From Microthrixaceae bacterium (lineage in GTDB: Bacteria > Actinomycetota > Acidimicrobiia > Acidimicrobiales > Microtrichaceae), in the NCBI GenBank assembly GCA_020027475.1, contig JAHRAZ010000126.1, forward strand, positions 1 through 61,911: a DNA stretch of 61,911 bases, read 5' to 3'. Of the stretch, positions 1 to 9,053 are shown piece by piece. Under the pieces are notes generated by a model. It had not been told where the DNA came from. It was given only the letters and a program-made list of their open reading frames with translations, and ran no database searches. Made by a program: the position numbers and the translations under genes. Numbering within the stretch: position 1 is the first letter of the stretch; each line of letters starts with the position of its first letter.

Positions 1-127
1 GAAGTCGCTGGCGGACGGTGGGAACATGAAGAAGGTTGAGCGTGCAGTGCGACGCGCCGCCGGTGGTTTTGTGTCCGAAAAGACACGCCGTCGCCCGATG
101 ATCGTTCCGGTGGTCATGGAACCCTGA
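1..127 (+). CDS. rnj: Ribonuclease J, C-terminal end (partial)
   Basis: Only the last 41 codons are present; the gene enters from the left edge in the frame starting at base 2. The visible tail ends in TRRRPMIVPVVMEP, which resembles the arginine-rich, hydrophobic end typical of actinobacterial RNase J, a metallo-beta-lactamase-fold endo/5'-exoribonuclease for mRNA decay and rRNA maturation. The catalytic domain lies outside the window. Its stop codon overlaps the start of the next gene (TGATG), so the two are probably translationally coupled. In many actinobacteria rnj lies near ftsK, as here. The identification rests on a short tail, so it is moderately sure. Confidence 0.7.
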   Translation, partial: KSLADGGNMKKVERAVRRAAGGFVSEKTRRRPMIVPVVMEP

Positions 128-1242
128 TGAGGTTCTTCGAGGACTCCGGCATGGACTTCGGCCTCCGATGCCTGCTCTCAGGCGTACGGGATGGCACTGC
201 GGAGGTCGGGGAGGTTCTGGTCACGGCGGACTTGATCCACGACGGCGACGCCGAATCGTGGCTCTCGGAATTCTGTGCACTTGGAAAACGACTCGCGGGT
301 GCGGCTGCCGAGGCCGAAGCAGACGGCCGAAACCGCACTGCTTGGGGCCTGTCGCTGCGCTCAGCCAACTATCTGTTCGGTGGGGCCTGGTGGGCACCTG
401 CCACCGACCGACGCGACGATGTGGTCCGACTCTGGAAGGATCACCGCGAATCGTGGAACCGAGCAGTGGCACTCTGGCCGTCACCGGCTCACAAGTTTGC
501 CCTGAACAGCCCGGTTGGCAGCCTGCCGGCCTACTGGTTCAATCCAGCGTCGGCAGCATCGGTGGGCGCGGTCGTGATGATCCAGGGCCTCGACACGCCC
601 CTGTCGGATGCACCCATGACGGGACTCTCGGAAGCCCTGCGTCGGGGATATTCGGTGTTGCTGCTCGAAGGGCCGGGGCAGGGTGAGGCCCTCCTGATCG
701 ATGGCCTTGGACTCGATCAACCCTGGACCGGGATCGTGGAGTCCGCCGTTGACTGGGTAAGGGAGAATTCGAGTGGCCCGGTTGTTGTGATGGGAATCAA
801 TCACGGTTCGTACTTCGTGCTCCACTCCGTTGCATCAGGGCTGGAAGTTGATGCAATCGTGGTTGATCCTGCCGTGTTCGATCTGGGCGGGGATCTTGCG
901 GCGGGAGCTGACGACCCGATCATGGGCGCCAAGCTGGCGATGGCCTACGGAGCACTCTCGGGAACCCAGATCTCAGCTGCACAAGCTGCCGACAAAGCCG
1001 CGGATCTGCAGTTCCCGGTTTCCTCGTTGGCGGATGTGAGTGCTCCGATGCTGGTTCTGGCGGCGGAGGATGCCGAGTCATTCACTTCCCAGAGTGCGGC
1101 CGTTGCCGAGGTCGCCGGGGATAACGTGACACTTCACGAGTTCGAGTCGAATCGGGGAGCCGGTCTTGATTGTGAGATCGCCGCTCCCCAGATCCGCAAC
1201 GCAGTCGTGTATGACTGGAGCGAGCAAGTCGTTTCCCGGTAA
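127..1242 (+). CDS. Alpha/beta-hydrolase-fold protein lacking the catalytic Ser and His (probable pseudoenzyme)
   Basis: A 371-residue protein resembling the FrsA / 2,6-dihydropseudooxynicotine-hydrolase group of alpha/beta hydrolases. There is a helical N-terminal cap of about 130 residues, then a core with an oxyanion-type strand (MIQGLDTP, about 151-158) and the EGPGQG turn (about 181-186). The nucleophile elbow, normally G-x-S-x-G, reads G-I-N-H-G at 223-227, so Ser is replaced by Asn225. The C-terminal catalytic His, expected in a GAEEHCQ-like stretch, falls on GAGLDCE, so it appears to be Asp348. The acid loop (LVLAAEDAE) is kept. It probably binds a ligand without hydrolysing it, or uses other chemistry. 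It is coupled to the upstream RNase J gene by a one-base overlap. Confidence 0.7.
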   Translation: MRFFEDSGMDFGLRCLLSGVRDGTAEVGEVLVTADLIHDGDAESWLSEFCALGKRLAGAAAEAEADGRNRTAWGLSLRSANYLFGGAWWAPATDRRDDVVRLWKDHRESWNRAVALWPSPAHKFALNSPVGSLPAYWFNPASAASVGAVVMIQGLDTPLSDAPMTGLSEALRRGYSVLLLEGPGQGEALLIDGLGLDQPWTGIVESAVDWVRENSSGPVVVMGINHGSYFVLHSVASGLEVDAIVVDPAVFDLGGDLAAGADDPIMGAKLAMAYGALSGTQISAAQAADKAADLQFPVSSLADVSAPMLVLAAEDAESFTSQSAAVAEVAGDNVTLHEFESNRGAGLDCEIAAPQIRNAVVYDWSEQVVSR

Positions 1243-1335: not shown

Positions 1336-1752
1336 ATGACTGGTCTTGGATGGTTCAGAGCGCTGGTGATCGATTGTGATGATCCCGATCGCCTTGCGGA
1401 GTTCTGGGCCGAGGTTCTCGGCGTGGAGCTGGCCGAGCGAGTACAGGACTGGGTCCAACTCAAGCCCGACCCGGGTGGTGTGTACCTCGCATTCCAGCCG
1501 TGGAGTGCGAGTCAGGCCTCCGGGGTCCCGGGAACGGATCGGCTCCCCTGGGTCCGACCCGACATCGAGGTGGCCGACATCGATGCCGCTGCCGCGCGAA
1601 TCGTTGCCCTTGGTGGGCAGAAACGCCGGGTCGTGCTGGAACCCAATGGTGACACTCACATCGTGATGGCCGATCCTGAAGGCAACGAGTTCGCCATCTT
1701 GCCCCCGCTGCCCCCGGAACTGGCCCGTCCCGGAACACCTTCGGCCCAGTAG
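1336..1752 (+). CDS. VOC (glyoxalase/bleomycin-resistance fold) family protein
   Basis: A 138-residue single-domain protein of the vicinal oxygen chelate superfamily, Glyoxalase_6 type. The start shows the usual beta-strand followed by DCDDPDRLAEFWAEVLGVE, and the second beta-alpha-beta-beta unit includes PWVRPDIEVADIDAA and ends with the common MADPEGNEFAILPP motif. Such proteins bind a metal or a small hydrophobic ligand; the substrate cannot be read from sequence. The ATG has a very good AGGAGG Shine-Dalgarno site seven bases upstream. The next gene starts 7 bases after the stop, so they form an operon. Confidence 0.85.
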   Translation: MTGLGWFRALVIDCDDPDRLAEFWAEVLGVELAERVQDWVQLKPDPGGVYLAFQPWSASQASGVPGTDRLPWVRPDIEVADIDAAAARIVALGGQKRRVVLEPNGDTHIVMADPEGNEFAILPPLPPELARPGTPSAQ

Positions 1753-1759
1753 GTTCGAG

Positions 1760-2782
1760 ATGACGGACTTGCGGATCCCGGCTGGCCGGCGGGCCAGACC
1801 GTTTCTACGTGCGCTGGCCGGCGTTCTCACCGTTGGGGATCACCGGCCCACGGCGGTGCAGGTCCGGGTTGCCGACGCTCTGGTTGCCCGCTTCGCCGGG
1901 GAACCCCTGCCGTCGTTGGCCGAGCTGGAGCCCGCGGAGCCGTCAGAAATCGCCGAGTTCATGGACAGCGCGGATCTCCGCTCCAATCTCGCTGACGTGG
2001 CGGTCCTCATGGAGCTCACCGAACACCCGGCATCCGCGGAGTGTGAGCGTCACCTGGAGAGGTATCTCGGCGAACTCGGCATCGACGTGCCCGATGTGGA
2101 AATCGCACGCGATACCGCCAGGGATCACCTGGTGCGCTTGCACGCGGACTTGCTCCGGAACTCCTGGTACACCGAACAAACCGTCGATTCGGTGGGGAGT
2201 GGCAAATTGTGGGAATACGCGCGATCCAAACTTGCGTACTACGGGGTGGCAGGAGACAAACGGATCTCGGACCGTTGGCTGGCTCTGGGGGACTGTGGCG
2301 AAGGAACGTGGGGTCGCGGCGTGTTCGATTTCTACCGAGTCCACAACTTCCCCTTTCCCGGGGAACCACACGGGATATACGAGATCGGCGCACTCCACGA
2401 CTGGGTGCACGTGCTGACCGACTACGGCACGGATCCCGAGGGCGAAATCGACGTGTTCGCCTTCATTGCCCAGACGATGGATGACGACCGTGGCTTCGTG
2501 CAGTTCATCTTCACCTTGGCCCTCTTTCAGAACGCGTCGGTGAAAACCGTGGGCGGATTGAAGGTGGCGATCGCCACCTCGGACACGCTGGATCAAGAGG
2601 GTGTCCCGGAACGGTTGGCCGATTCCCTCTCGCGGGGTTCGGTGTGCACCGCTGACGTGATGGGTGGAGTCGATCATTTCGCCCTTGCCGAGGTACCGCT
2701 CGAGGAACTGCGTCGGCGCTGGAGGATCCCCGAAAAGAGAAGGTCTTCGCTGGGAGCCTTCGATGTTCCGGATAGCCCGTAG
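1760..2782 (+). CDS. Coq4-like helical protein with HDxxH-x11-E motif
   Basis: A 340-residue, mostly helical soluble protein. The C-terminal half contains GIYEIGALHDWVHVLTDYGT followed by a Glu: His213, Asp214, His217 and Glu229 fit the HDxxH-x11-E metal-site signature of the COQ4 family, and the residues around it (VLT.YGTD..GE..VFAF.AQT) look like bacterial Coq4 homologues. Eukaryotic COQ4 scaffolds the ubiquinone complex and oxidatively decarboxylates the ring. The N-terminal ~110 residues form a separate helical region faintly resembling TerB-type bundles. An actinobacterium normally uses menaquinone, so a role in ubiquinone synthesis should not be assumed. It follows the VOC gene by 7 bases and ends 8 bases before the stop of the convergent MFS gene. 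Confidence 0.65.
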   Translation: MTDLRIPAGRRARPFLRALAGVLTVGDHRPTAVQVRVADALVARFAGEPLPSLAELEPAEPSEIAEFMDSADLRSNLADVAVLMELTEHPASAECERHLERYLGELGIDVPDVEIARDTARDHLVRLHADLLRNSWYTEQTVDSVGSGKLWEYARSKLAYYGVAGDKRISDRWLALGDCGEGTWGRGVFDFYRVHNFPFPGEPHGIYEIGALHDWVHVLTDYGTDPEGEIDVFAFIAQTMDDDRGFVQFIFTLALFQNASVKTVGGLKVAIATSDTLDQEGVPERLADSLSRGSVCTADVMGGVDHFALAEVPLEELRRRWRIPEKRRSSLGAFDVPDSP

Positions 2783-2790
2783 GCATCAGG

Positions 2791-4176
2791 TCAGGACACT
2801 GACGCCTTGGCGGTCCAGCGCTTCGACCGCCAGGCGACTGCCGCGCTGAGCAGGGAAACCGCGGCGATGATCACCGCTGCCCAGGCAATGGCGGTTCCCA
2901 GGTCGGATTCAGAGACTCCGGTGGCGGTCATGGCCACAGCGACCCCAGCGGCCACCCCGATGTTTCTCATCGTGGTGAGAACGCCCGACGCGGTCCCGGC
3001 GTGCTGTCGGGAAACTGATTCCACGGCGGCGGTTGTCGACACGTTGTAGGCCAATCCCTGTCCGACACCCGACAGAAGCAGGGCAGAGATCACAGGCCAC
3101 CGCGCCTCACCGTGGCCGAGGAACACCAGCACTGCGAATGACGCGGCGATCAGGAGACTGCCGACGGTCATTGGGGCGGCGGTTCCGAACTTCGCCACGA
3201 CTCGGCCGTTCGTGGCACCGAGAACCGCAAACGGCACGGAGTAGAGGAGGAAGACCGCTCCGGTGGCAATGGCACTCAACCCGACTTCGTCCTGGAGCCA
3301 GAAGGTCAGAAGAAAGGTGAGGGCTCCGAACCCCCAGTTGGTGAGACTCGCGACAGTTGCGGAAGATCGCAGGCCGCGGCTCAATCGGACGGCGCGCTCG
3401 ATCAGGGGACTACCGGACCTGCGTTCCTCCATTGCAAAGCCGACTGTGGTCACCACCGAAGCGGCAAGTGCGGCGAAGGTTCCCGGCTCCATCCAGCCTC
3501 TCGTGGCACCCAGCTGCAATCCCAGGACCACCAGGGCAGGGGAGGCGACGCCGAGGATAGCGGATCTTCGCGCAACCGGGGCGGGATCGCCGGTACTTTC
3601 AGTGATGACGGTTTGCGCCAGGAGGATTGCACCGGCCAGCAGCACAACGTTGATTCCGAAGAACCATCGCCATGAGGCCGCGGTGAGAATCAGGCCTGCC
3701 ACGATCGGTGCCGCGGCACCGGAAACCCCGGCAACGGCACCCCAGACTCCAACGGCCCGATCTCGTGCGGATCCGGCGAATGCAGCAGAGAGGACCGCGA
3801 GTGATGCGGGCATGAACAGGGCGGTCCCGCCACCCTGGAGGAGTCGGCCCGTTATGAGCCACCACATGTTCACCGAGGTGGCGCAGACAAGTGATGCCAC
3901 CATGAACAACAACAGTCCGGCAACAAGGACTTTGCGGCGACCCAGGCGGTCGACGGTTCGCCCGACGAGAAGAACAGGTGCCGCCGAGCCGAGTGCGAAG
4001 GCACCGATCACCAGACCCAGCTGTTGTTGGGTTGCGTCGAGGTCTTCGCCGATTGACGGCAGAGCCACCGATACACCCGCGAAATCGATGCTCAGCACCG
4101 CCAGCGGCACCGATACGGCCGCCAGAATTGACCACCGCGAATCCTTTTCAGACGTTTCGGGAAGGGCCGCGGACAC
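2791..4176 (-). CDS. MFS transporter, DHA2-type drug exporter
   Basis: A 461-residue major facilitator protein of the proton-antiport drug exporter group. After a 15-residue cytoplasmic start, hydrophobic helices run throughout. Motif A is visible as GRTVDRLGRRKV between helices 2 and 3, and a GG-rich helix 5 motif (AGVSGAAAPIVAGL) matches the antiporter motif C region. The length fits about 12-14 helices. It is transcribed towards the Coq4-like gene and divergently from ftsK, with 54 bases between the start codons, so the two promoters must be packed closely. The substrate is unknown; nothing adjacent looks like a dedicated regulator. Confidence 0.85.
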   Translation of the reverse strand: MSAALPETSEKDSRWSILAAVSVPLAVLSIDFAGVSVALPSIGEDLDATQQQLGLVIGAFALGSAAPVLLVGRTVDRLGRRKVLVAGLLLFMVASLVCATSVNMWWLITGRLLQGGGTALFMPASLAVLSAAFAGSARDRAVGVWGAVAGVSGAAAPIVAGLILTAASWRWFFGINVVLLAGAILLAQTVITESTGDPAPVARRSAILGVASPALVVLGLQLGATRGWMEPGTFAALAASVVTTVGFAMEERRSGSPLIERAVRLSRGLRSSATVASLTNWGFGALTFLLTFWLQDEVGLSAIATGAVFLLYSVPFAVLGATNGRVVAKFGTAAPMTVGSLLIAASFAVLVFLGHGEARWPVISALLLSGVGQGLAYNVSTTAAVESVSRQHAGTASGVLTTMRNIGVAAGVAVAMTATGVSESDLGTAIAWAAVIIAAVSLLSAAVAWRSKRWTAKASVS

Positions 4177-6856: not shown

Positions 6857-7771
6857 ATGGAGTTCACCGAAGTCGCGAACGGTCTCCGGTTCCCCGAAGG
6901 ACCGATAGCGATGCCAGACGGGTCAGTGCTCCTTGTTGAAACTGCCCGGGGCACCCTGAGTCGAGTTCAACCCGACGGAGATATCGCAGTGGTTGCCGAG
7001 TGTGGGGGAGGACCCAACGGCGCTGCGCTGGGACCTGATGGCGACGTGTGGATCGCCAACAATGGTGGCAACTTCGAGTTCCTCGACCTCGACGGCATGA
7101 CAATCCCGCTGGACTCATCCGACAACTACGACTTCGGGCGCATCGAGCGTGCCGACCCAGCGACAGGCAGCGTCGAGATCCTGTACTCCGAATGTGATGG
7201 CAGGCCTCTGCGAGCTCCGAATGATCTGGTCATGGATGCGCACGGCGGATTGTGGTTCACCGACCATGGACGCCGCTCCGAGCGTAATGCTGATCGAGGT
7301 GGAGTCTTCTACGCCCGTTGCGACGGTTCGGAGATACGCGAGGTGCTTCAGCCGCTTGACTTCCCGAACGGCATCGGACTCAGCGCCGATGGCTCCCGGC
7401 TGTATGTGGCCGAAACCCACACGGGCCGCCTCTGGAGTTGGGATGTCCCGGAGCCCGGAGTTGCTGTGGGAGCCGGCTTGATCCCCCCAAACGGCGATCT
7501 GGTGACCGGGCTGGCGGGTTTTCAGTTGTTCGACTCGCTCGCGGTTGACGGTGCGGGAAACGTATGTGTTGCCACTCTGGTCAATGGTGGGATCACCGTG
7601 GTGTCGCCGGATGGCGAGTCGGTGGAGCACATCGCGGTCGATGACACGATCACCACCAACATCTGTTTCGGTGGCGAGGAACTCCGGACCGCCTTCATCA
7701 CAGCTTCCAGCACGGGCAGGTTGCTCAAGGCACAATGGCCGACCCCCGGATTGGCACTCGAGTGGTCGTGA
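6857..7771 (+). CDS. SMP-30/gluconolactonase/LRE family protein
   Basis: A 304-residue six-bladed beta-propeller of the SMP-30 family, Ca-dependent lactonases that hydrolyse sugar lactones such as gluconolactone. Visible signatures are the N-terminal LRFPEGP strand with the metal-ligand Glu, NGAALGPDGDVWIANNGG, RAPNDLVMDAHGGLWFTDHG (metal Asn and the propeller WFTD motif) and LDFPNGIGLSADGSRLYVAET. The ATG has a GGAGG site ten bases upstream. It lies 55 bases after ftsK and 13 bases before rimO, so it may be co-transcribed with both, although no functional link is evident. No signal peptide is seen. Confidence 0.85.
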   Translation: MEFTEVANGLRFPEGPIAMPDGSVLLVETARGTLSRVQPDGDIAVVAECGGGPNGAALGPDGDVWIANNGGNFEFLDLDGMTIPLDSSDNYDFGRIERADPATGSVEILYSECDGRPLRAPNDLVMDAHGGLWFTDHGRRSERNADRGGVFYARCDGSEIREVLQPLDFPNGIGLSADGSRLYVAETHTGRLWSWDVPEPGVAVGAGLIPPNGDLVTGLAGFQLFDSLAVDGAGNVCVATLVNGGITVVSPDGESVEHIAVDDTITTNICFGGEELRTAFITASSTGRLLKAQWPTPGLALEWS

Positions 7772-7784
7772 GTAATCTGGAAAG

Positions 7785-9053
7785 GTGAGCCGCTCCTTCT
7801 GGGTCGAGACCCTCGGCTGTCCAAAGAATCAGGTGGATTCCGAAAAGCTCACCGCAGGCATGCTTGCGGACGGGCTGGTTGTTGCGCGGTCCGCGGAATC
7901 TGCTGATCTGGTCGTCGTGAACACCTGCGCCTTCATCGAAGAGGCACGGGAGGAGTCGATTGCGACCATCCTCGACCTTGCGGAGTCCCGTTCCGGCAAC
8001 GCCGAACTGGTCGTCACCGGTTGCATGGCCGAGCGTTACGGCTCCGAGCTGACTGAAGCGCTTCCGGAGGTCGACCAGGTCGCAGGGTTCGGGGTGCCGG
8101 TCACCCTGACCACCAAATCTTCCGACAAGGAGACAGGTTCTGCGCCGCCTCCCCTGATGGATCTGCTGAACATGCCCCGGCCACCTGCGGCGGCGCCCTG
8201 GGCTTATGTGAAGGTGGCCGAGGGCTGCGACAAGAAGTGTGGCTTCTGTGCCATTCCCAGTTTTCGTGGCACCCAGGTGAGTCGAAACATTGACTCGATC
8301 CTCGATGAGGTCGATCAACTGGGCGTCCGTGAAGTTGTGCTGGTAGCGCAGGATCTCGGTGCGTTTGGTCGAGACGGTGCCCGGGGCGAACGCCGCATCG
8401 TGGAGTTGGTTCGCAGGGTCTCCGAGGTGACCGACTGGGTCCGGCTGCTGTATCTGTTTCCCTCAGAGTTGTCCGAGGAGTTGATCGAGACGATCGCGGC
8501 GTCACCCGTACCGTATTTCGATTTGTCGCTCCAGCATGTGTCGGAGCCGCTGGTGCGCAGAATGCGCCGGCCGGGGTCAGCCGAGTCCTATCTTGAGCGC
8601 ATCCAGCGGATACGCGAACTCAACGCCGACTCGGTGTTCCGCTCCAATTTCATAGTTGGCTATCCCGGAGAGACCGAAGCAGATCAGGATGCACTTCTGG
8701 AATTCGTGAGCGAGGCACAACTCGACTGGTGCGGCTTCTTCCGGTACTCCGAGGAAGAAGGAACGTACGCCGCGGGCCTCGACGGGGGGATTGCGGATGA
8801 ATTGGTGGCAGACCGACTGGCTGAGCTCCGCGAAATTCAGGATGACATGAGCGCGTCGCGCCGGGACGCACTGATCGGGACCACCACCACGGTGCTGGTT
8901 GACGAGATCGGACTGGGCCGCTCACACCGCGAGGCGCCGGAGATCGACGGCATGATCTGGGTTCCCTCCTCACTGGAGGTCGGACAGTTTCACGACGTGT
9001 CGATTGTGGCTGCAGAAGGCCCTGATCTCTTCGCGGAGTTGATCGAACCATGA
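7785..9053 (+). CDS. rimO: Ribosomal protein uS12 methylthiotransferase RimO
   Basis: A radical SAM enzyme that adds a methylthio group to an Asp of ribosomal protein S12. The N-terminal MTTase domain has the three cluster cysteines Cys12, Cys48 and Cys80 (GCPKNQVDSEK is the RimO hallmark, unlike GCQMNEHDS in MiaB), followed by the SAM-cluster motif CDKKCGFC (Cys148, 152, 155) and a C-terminal TRAM domain. Start is GTG. It overlaps pgsA by four bases (ATGA). Two methylthiotransferases, rimO and miaB, are only about 3 kb apart here. Confidence 0.95.
   Translation: MSRSFWVETLGCPKNQVDSEKLTAGMLADGLVVARSAESADLVVVNTCAFIEEAREESIATILDLAESRSGNAELVVTGCMAERYGSELTEALPEVDQVAGFGVPVTLTTKSSDKETGSAPPPLMDLLNMPRPPAAAPWAYVKVAEGCDKKCGFCAIPSFRGTQVSRNIDSILDEVDQLGVREVVLVAQDLGAFGRDGARGERRIVELVRRVSEVTDWVRLLYLFPSELSEELIETIAASPVPYFDLSLQHVSEPLVRRMRRPGSAESYLERIQRIRELNADSVFRSNFIVGYPGETEADQDALLEFVSEAQLDWCGFFRYSEEEGTYAAGLDGGIADELVADRLAELREIQDDMSASRRDALIGTTTTVLVDEIGLGRSHREAPEIDGMIWVPSSLEVGQFHDVSIVAAEGPDLFAELIEP

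Follow-up and report, generated by a model that had tools for sequence, protein, structure and literature searches.

The window analysed here, 61,911 nucleotides from the forward strand of contig JAHRAZ010000126.1 (Microthrixaceae bacterium), carries at 127..1242 on the + strand a gene for an alpha/beta-hydrolase-fold protein of 371 aa in which all three positions of the catalytic triad are changed. We base this on the fold, the three altered positions, the grouping of the protein with its nearest relatives in one clade, an aspartate strictly conserved in that clade, and a VOC gene as constant neighbour. The part that is best supported, as judged from the sequences, is that Ser-His-acid hydrolysis appears to have been lost in the clade. 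Since the closest relatives found share the triad change as well as the same neighbouring gene, the protein was probably put to a new use, in which it binds a small molecule or transforms it mildly without hydrolysis. Neither chance nor a sequencing slip accounts for the changes, as they are also present in five other loci with 28-56% identity to the window protein.

The reading frame begins with ATG and stays open throughout, as initially annotated, and the FrsA/DPNH-type fold that had been proposed for its product is confirmed both by sequence and profile matches in the PDB and by comparison of an AlphaFold model with solved structures. With phmmer, the window protein matches SMU_737 at E 1e-7 and DPNH at E 0.01. 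When four clade members are combined in a profile, the best match is SMU_737 (3fnb), over the full length and at E 1.2e-20, followed by Ayg1 (9e-18), DPNH (2.5e-11) and AntI (3.3e-6). The model, derived from a shallow five-row alignment, has a pTM of 0.80 and superimposes on DPNH with Z 33.6 over 338 residues, on SMU_737 with 31.7, on AntI with 30.1 and on FrsA with 29.2; the helical N-terminal domain and the alpha/beta-hydrolase domain align end to end with this family. A Pfam search returned no match for the window protein, and for the FrsA family PF06500 its orthologue in G037 reaches 10.8 bits, below the cut-off of 22. Within the model, pLDDT falls below 50 at residues 315-319, 342-345 and 349-352, which are the catalytic loops, so the placing of Asp348 discussed below rests on the sequence alignment.

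The characterised relatives of this fold are hydrolases with a serine nucleophile. DPNH (2,6-dihydroxy-pseudo-oxynicotine hydrolase, 2jbw), a Ser-type C-C hydrolase, has the whole two-domain fold in common with the window protein, which, unlike DPNH, lacks all three triad residues. SMU_737 likewise differs from it: its elbow has the Ser and its aligned loop the His. FrsA (3mve, 4i4c) resembles the window protein in fold at Z about 29, and the Vibrio vulnificus enzyme is described as having esterase activity (PMC6450606). The polyketide-trimming hydrolases of the PlAntI/Ayg1 type (6hxa, 8qbh, 8qd1) are similar in fold as well, with Z 30.1 and 26.7. For AntI, 1-naphthol is reported to be bound in the space that separates the two domains, close to Ser245 and the GLDS loop (PMC11165489). 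The counterpart of this oxyanion/specificity loop of PlAntI in the window protein is a GLDT loop, G154-T157 (586..597, + strand), by an AntI alignment that has E 0.18 with the single sequence and 3.3e-6 with the profile. Its aspartate is replaced by A in G156 and by G in L017, which weakens the case for a common pocket chemistry.

In the family alignment, the serine position of the nucleophile elbow is taken by Asn225 (799..801, + strand) within G-I-N-H-G, and the position of the catalytic histidine by Asp348 (1168..1170, + strand) within G-A-G-L-D-C-E; both assignments had been made by the initial annotation. Residues were read in up to 30 loci per search and in 17 further strong matches, with weaker matches excluded and the duplicate loci L054, L058, L059 and L077 left out of the residue counts and the tree. 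Of the 72 distinct non-clade rows, 71 have Ser as nucleophile; counting lettered rows, 70 of 71 have E or D as the acid and all 70 have His in the histidine column. The one row without Ser is L134, which is likewise triad-less. The 17 further relatives agree completely (Ser 17/17, E/D 16/16 lettered, His 16/16 lettered). The acid loop had been thought to remain in the window protein, with two of three triad residues lost. The loss of Ser and His stands, but the acid column, E/D in relatives, holds Ala316 (1072..1074, + strand), and so all three residues are changed.

The six clade members depart from the triad in a graded manner. Their nucleophile column reads Asn in three, Ala in two and Ser in one, the acid column Ala in five and Gln in one, and the histidine column Asp in all six. 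Of the two substitutions whose conservation in orthologues was in question, the aspartate is thus constant and the asparagine is not; five of the six members lack Ser and all of them lack His. The conserved novelty is therefore Asp348 rather than Asn225, and the surrounding segment G346-L-D-C-E-I351 is identical in all six. An alternative triad can be rejected: H106, located in the N-terminal helical part in a four-row clade alignment, is the sole invariant histidine, and positions 315-317 hold no conserved acid. D315, beside the acid column, varies across the six members as D, S, H, D, A and E, and position 314 is E, Q or D in the clade, with Ser-type rows equally acidic there.

What the three changes may mean for activity can be gauged from AntI, which needs Ser245 and His355, where the clade has Asn/Ala/Ser and Asp. 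Mutagenesis data reported for AntI state that Ser245Ala and His355Ala abolish the product and that Asp326Ala does not (PMC11165489). By this measure the replacement of His alone should stop hydrolytic chemistry, while the loss of the acid taken alone is not telling. The earlier reading of a non-hydrolytic function thus holds for the absence of a Ser/His mechanism, which the triad loss across orthologues argues for, and fails in its premise of an intact acid loop. An active paralogue was not found in the window's own genome at E <= 0.001; Ser-type paralogues are present elsewhere in the genomes of G016 and G037.

The clade comprises the window locus (G000), G016, G037, G156, L017 and G717. Identity to the window protein is 56% for G016, 45% for G037 and 35% for G156. 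L017 is a contig of an Acidimicrobiia MAG on which the gene copy is frameshifted, and G717 is a Thermoleophilia MAG in which the gene is in two parts, each at a contig end (L057/L082 and L018/L083, where L018 and L083 are the same contig, letter for letter). We infer that the two G717 pieces form one gene, as both lie at contig ends. In a tree of 57 rows the six loci fall into one clade with support of 100/100, which has the Ser-type pair L055 and L056 as its sister (99/98) and lies within a set of hydrolases whose Ser-His-acid triad is intact. The tree contains neither L018 nor the second fragment of L017, so the N-terminal parts alone determine where L017 and G717 fall.

G717 keeps Ser and already has Gln in the acid column and Asp in that of the histidine. 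If its pieces are one gene, His and acid would have been lost first. This likely order agrees with a nucleophile position freed from constraint once the chemistry was different. A single clade shows the triad at successive stages of loss, with Ser retained in G717 and replaced by Ala or Asn in the other members, and its sisters are intact Ser-type proteins; this makes it possible to test whether a dead hydrolase becomes a binder or a new enzyme.

The clade gene is rare. Among the matches read, it occurs in at least 4 of 397 genomes of the order, a phylum set of 396 genomes added G717 as one new clade genome, and 369 genomes of the class of G717 gave no further member. A search for related loci with the window protein alone found no match; with a three-row alignment, L017 and L018 were matched. 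Viral contigs gave no match with alignment A2 and one distant fragment with alignment A5, and the best 20 of 23 rows of a plasmid search are distant matches of 21-27% identity.

Three further loci form a second triad-less set in the same family. The nucleophile position is Gly in G1050 (L134, C163) and Glu in both G974 (L136, C34) and G898 (L137, C1), and the His loop is missing; the regions examined around L134, L136 and L137 contain no VOC or Coq4-like gene. These losses, independent of the one in the clade, suggest that the family is prone to triad loss outside the gene module described below as well.

Immediately downstream of the hydrolase-fold gene lies a gene for a VOC protein of 138 aa (1336..1752, + strand), which matches Glyoxalase_6 (Pfam PF18029) at E 1.4e-23 and with 84 bits against a cut-off of 23.6. 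The VOC gene is the next gene downstream in all six clade loci; in G717 it stands beside the C-terminal piece of the hydrolase-fold gene. Glyoxalase-type metal ligands seem to be absent from the window copy, at the positions of Arg74 and Ala120, in a comparison by eye with the glyoxalase motifs, and this, if so, would match binding-type VOC proteins. A profile of the module VOC proteins matched no other VOC locus in their own genomes. Neither VOC nor Coq4-like genes were seen near Ser-type loci (0/53, 0/20 and 0/17, 0/90 in total). The flanks viewed extend to at most about 1.5 kb, less where a contig ends, and for six loci to at most about 5 kb. At L144, one of the 17 further Ser-type loci, a distant MFS gene of 30% identity is located nearby.

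The third gene of the module encodes a Coq4-like protein of 340 aa (1760..2782, + strand). It carries the metal motif HDxxHx11E at H213-E229 (2396..2446, + strand), which is invariant in 4 of 4 aligned orthologues and is given as the motif of COQ4 (PMC9774615; PMC7615680). Matches to the Pfam family PF05019 stay below the cut-off of 22.9 bits in G156 (17.5 bits) and G016 (12.1 bits), with E 0.0027 and 0.12 in two orthologues and confined to the motif region; the window and G037 copies have no match to PF05019. A PDB match to Alr8543 at E 0.19 covers the motif region only as well, and a single-sequence model, at a pTM of 0.26, is too poor to be used for the fold. A close subfamily of this protein is found in 8 of 397 genomes of the order, at E <= 2e-108 vs 4e-57 for the next match, and these eight include all four in which the clade gene was read. 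The overlap has a probability of 7e-8 under an assumption of independent genomes, which does not apply, and with a cut chosen post hoc. L017 shows no Coq4-like gene in 17 kb. In G071:C3 the Coq4-like gene (L107:7171-8256) is interrupted by an in-frame stop; in the other copy of G071 (L106), the stop is the end of the open frame at 7550-8593.

Convergent with the module is a gene for an MFS exporter of 461 aa, DHA2/EmrB-like (2791..4176, - strand; PF07690, E 1.2e-53). Its best family is TIGR00711 at E 1.7e-40, with 139.2 bits below the cut-off of 230.2. An MFS gene is near the hydrolase-fold gene in the window, G037, G156, L017 and G717, and none occurs within 15 kb in G016. Coq4-like and VOC genes without a hydrolase-fold gene are found in G003, G009 and G071 (two loci). 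The MFS gene is also present in these hydrolase-less modules of G009 and G071 and absent from that of G003, a contig of 7.7 kb; G337 has MFS and Coq4-like genes on a 3-kb contig. As VOC, Coq4-like and MFS genes also occur together without the hydrolase, these three seem to be the core and the triad-less protein looks accessory. The locus points to an uncharacterised gene module with a Coq4-like protein in Acidimicrobiia and Thermoleophilia. Recent work describes human-type COQ4 as a zinc-dependent decarboxylase in vitro (PMC7615680), so that one may ask which compound a bacterial Coq4 relative encoded next to an exporter would decarboxylate.

Our preferred explanation, which we consider fairly probable, is that a member of the DPNH/SMU_737/AntI/Ayg1/FrsA family lost its Ser-His-acid chemistry early in the clade and was retained in an accessory role beside the VOC, Coq4-like and MFS module, with a non-covalent ligand pocket in which Asp348 is key. 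The pocket that separates the hydrolase domain from the helical N-terminal one, the site of 1-naphthol in AntI, would still take a small, perhaps aromatic or polyketide-like molecule, which would be held without a covalent acyl-enzyme, and Asp348 together with the GLDT-type loop may contact a polar group of it. The protein might do no more than keep the ligand and pass it on to the exporter or to the VOC or Coq4-like protein; alternatively, Asp348 would act as general acid/base in a step other than hydrolysis, for example an elimination, a cyclisation or an isomerisation. The ligand may belong to an export-linked pathway; we infer its nature, the complex and the direction of transport. The explanation draws on six loci only, one split over two contigs (G717) and one frameshifted (L017). 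Also counting against it are the low confidence of the model at the catalytic loops, the varying GLDT aspartate, the sub-threshold Coq4 matches, the convergent orientation of the window's MFS gene, and the lack of an MFS gene in G016 and of a Coq4-like gene in L017.

A bolder version is an actinobacterial small-molecule module of VOC, Coq4-like metal protein and MFS exporter, with accessory genes. In it a protein of C-C-hydrolase fold, whose His was first exchanged for Asp and whose acid was lost, with Ser following later, would have turned into an Asp-centred non-covalent catalyst or a ligand carrier for an aromatic metabolite. We hold this version, including that such a module is previously undescribed, as a tentative proposal that we would not yet bet on. 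The clade and module are not described in the matches listed from titles and abstracts of the open-access literature. Triad-less alpha/beta hydrolases as such are already known.

That the protein is a pure pseudoenzyme, a non-catalytic scaffold or carrier for a partner (VOC or Coq4-like) or a ligand with Asp348 serving folding or binding, has a good chance, if a little short of even. It is in agreement with a nucleophile column that varies between N, A and S, with Ala or Gln at the acid position, and with the second triad-less set in the same family, in which the His loop is missing altogether (L134, L136, L137). A precedent is NDRG3, a protein of solved structure and alpha/beta-hydrolase fold that is described as nonenzymatic and has other residues at all three triad positions (PMC7022630). 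As in the window protein, the whole triad is replaced in NDRG2/NDRG3; that family is another subfamily in another context, so the window protein would work like its members rather than be one of them. The identity of G346-I351 in all six clade members despite their large divergence, however, is stricter than scaffolding needs.

This strictness of Asp348 speaks for an Asp-based non-hydrolytic enzyme, in which the residue, as general acid/base, would drive an elimination, cyclisation or isomerisation on a ligand that the module supplies, a reading that we regard as possible but rather unlikely. Such a step would suit a module that contains a VOC protein and a putatively metal-dependent relative of Coq4. 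AbyA5 (5no5), a structural neighbour at Z 26.7, is reported to make a tetronate by acetate elimination (PMC10107801), so the fold can serve non-hydrolytic chemistry; this likeness is one of fold. Against an Asp-based enzyme stands the low confidence of the model in the catalytic loops.

We consider a hydrolase with a replaced nucleophile, e.g., Cys349 or His226 next to Asn225, to be quite improbable. Cys349 is invariant in the clade, but it also occurs in 38 of 50 lettered Ser-type rows and a catalytic role is hence not required of it; of the six lettered clade rows, four retain His226, but G156 and L017 have D or G there, and no histidine other than H106 is invariant. Decay to a pseudogene, suggested by the frameshifted L017 copy and the patchy occurrence in the at least 4 of 397 order genomes, is scarcely credible in view of the open frames in the window, G016, G037 and G156, the clade-specific invariant residues and the retention beside VOC in six different genomes.

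The initial annotation had also drawn on a coupling to RNase J. The 3' end of rnj occupies 1..127 (+ strand), and its stop TGA (125-127) overlaps the ATG (127-129) of the hydrolase-fold gene; in G016 a copy identified as RNase J lies upstream as well, with a gap of 60-odd bases. In the regions examined of G037, G156, L017 and G717, rnj is absent. The coupling is therefore real in the window and G016 (2 of 6 loci), where it is seen within one family only, and is rejected as a general link; rnj is a local neighbour that is not conserved. An anti-phage defence module was likewise rejected, as none of five module proteins matched PADLOC at E <= 0.01.

Some module loci carry additional genes. An accessory gene of approximately 360 aa is found in G156 (L047:8833-9900) and G071 (L107:8220-9320), with 44% identity between the two; the G156 copy matched nothing in NCBIfam or PADLOC, nor in Pfam at E up to 1. 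In G016, a protein weakly similar to class C beta-lactamase/AmpH, below the cut-off (L015:3145-4410), is encoded between ftsK and the module, where the window carries its MFS gene. Just beyond the G156 module lies a GMC-type oxidoreductase (L047:12798-14306) with weak similarity to pyranose-oxidase and mycofactocin-dehydrogenase.
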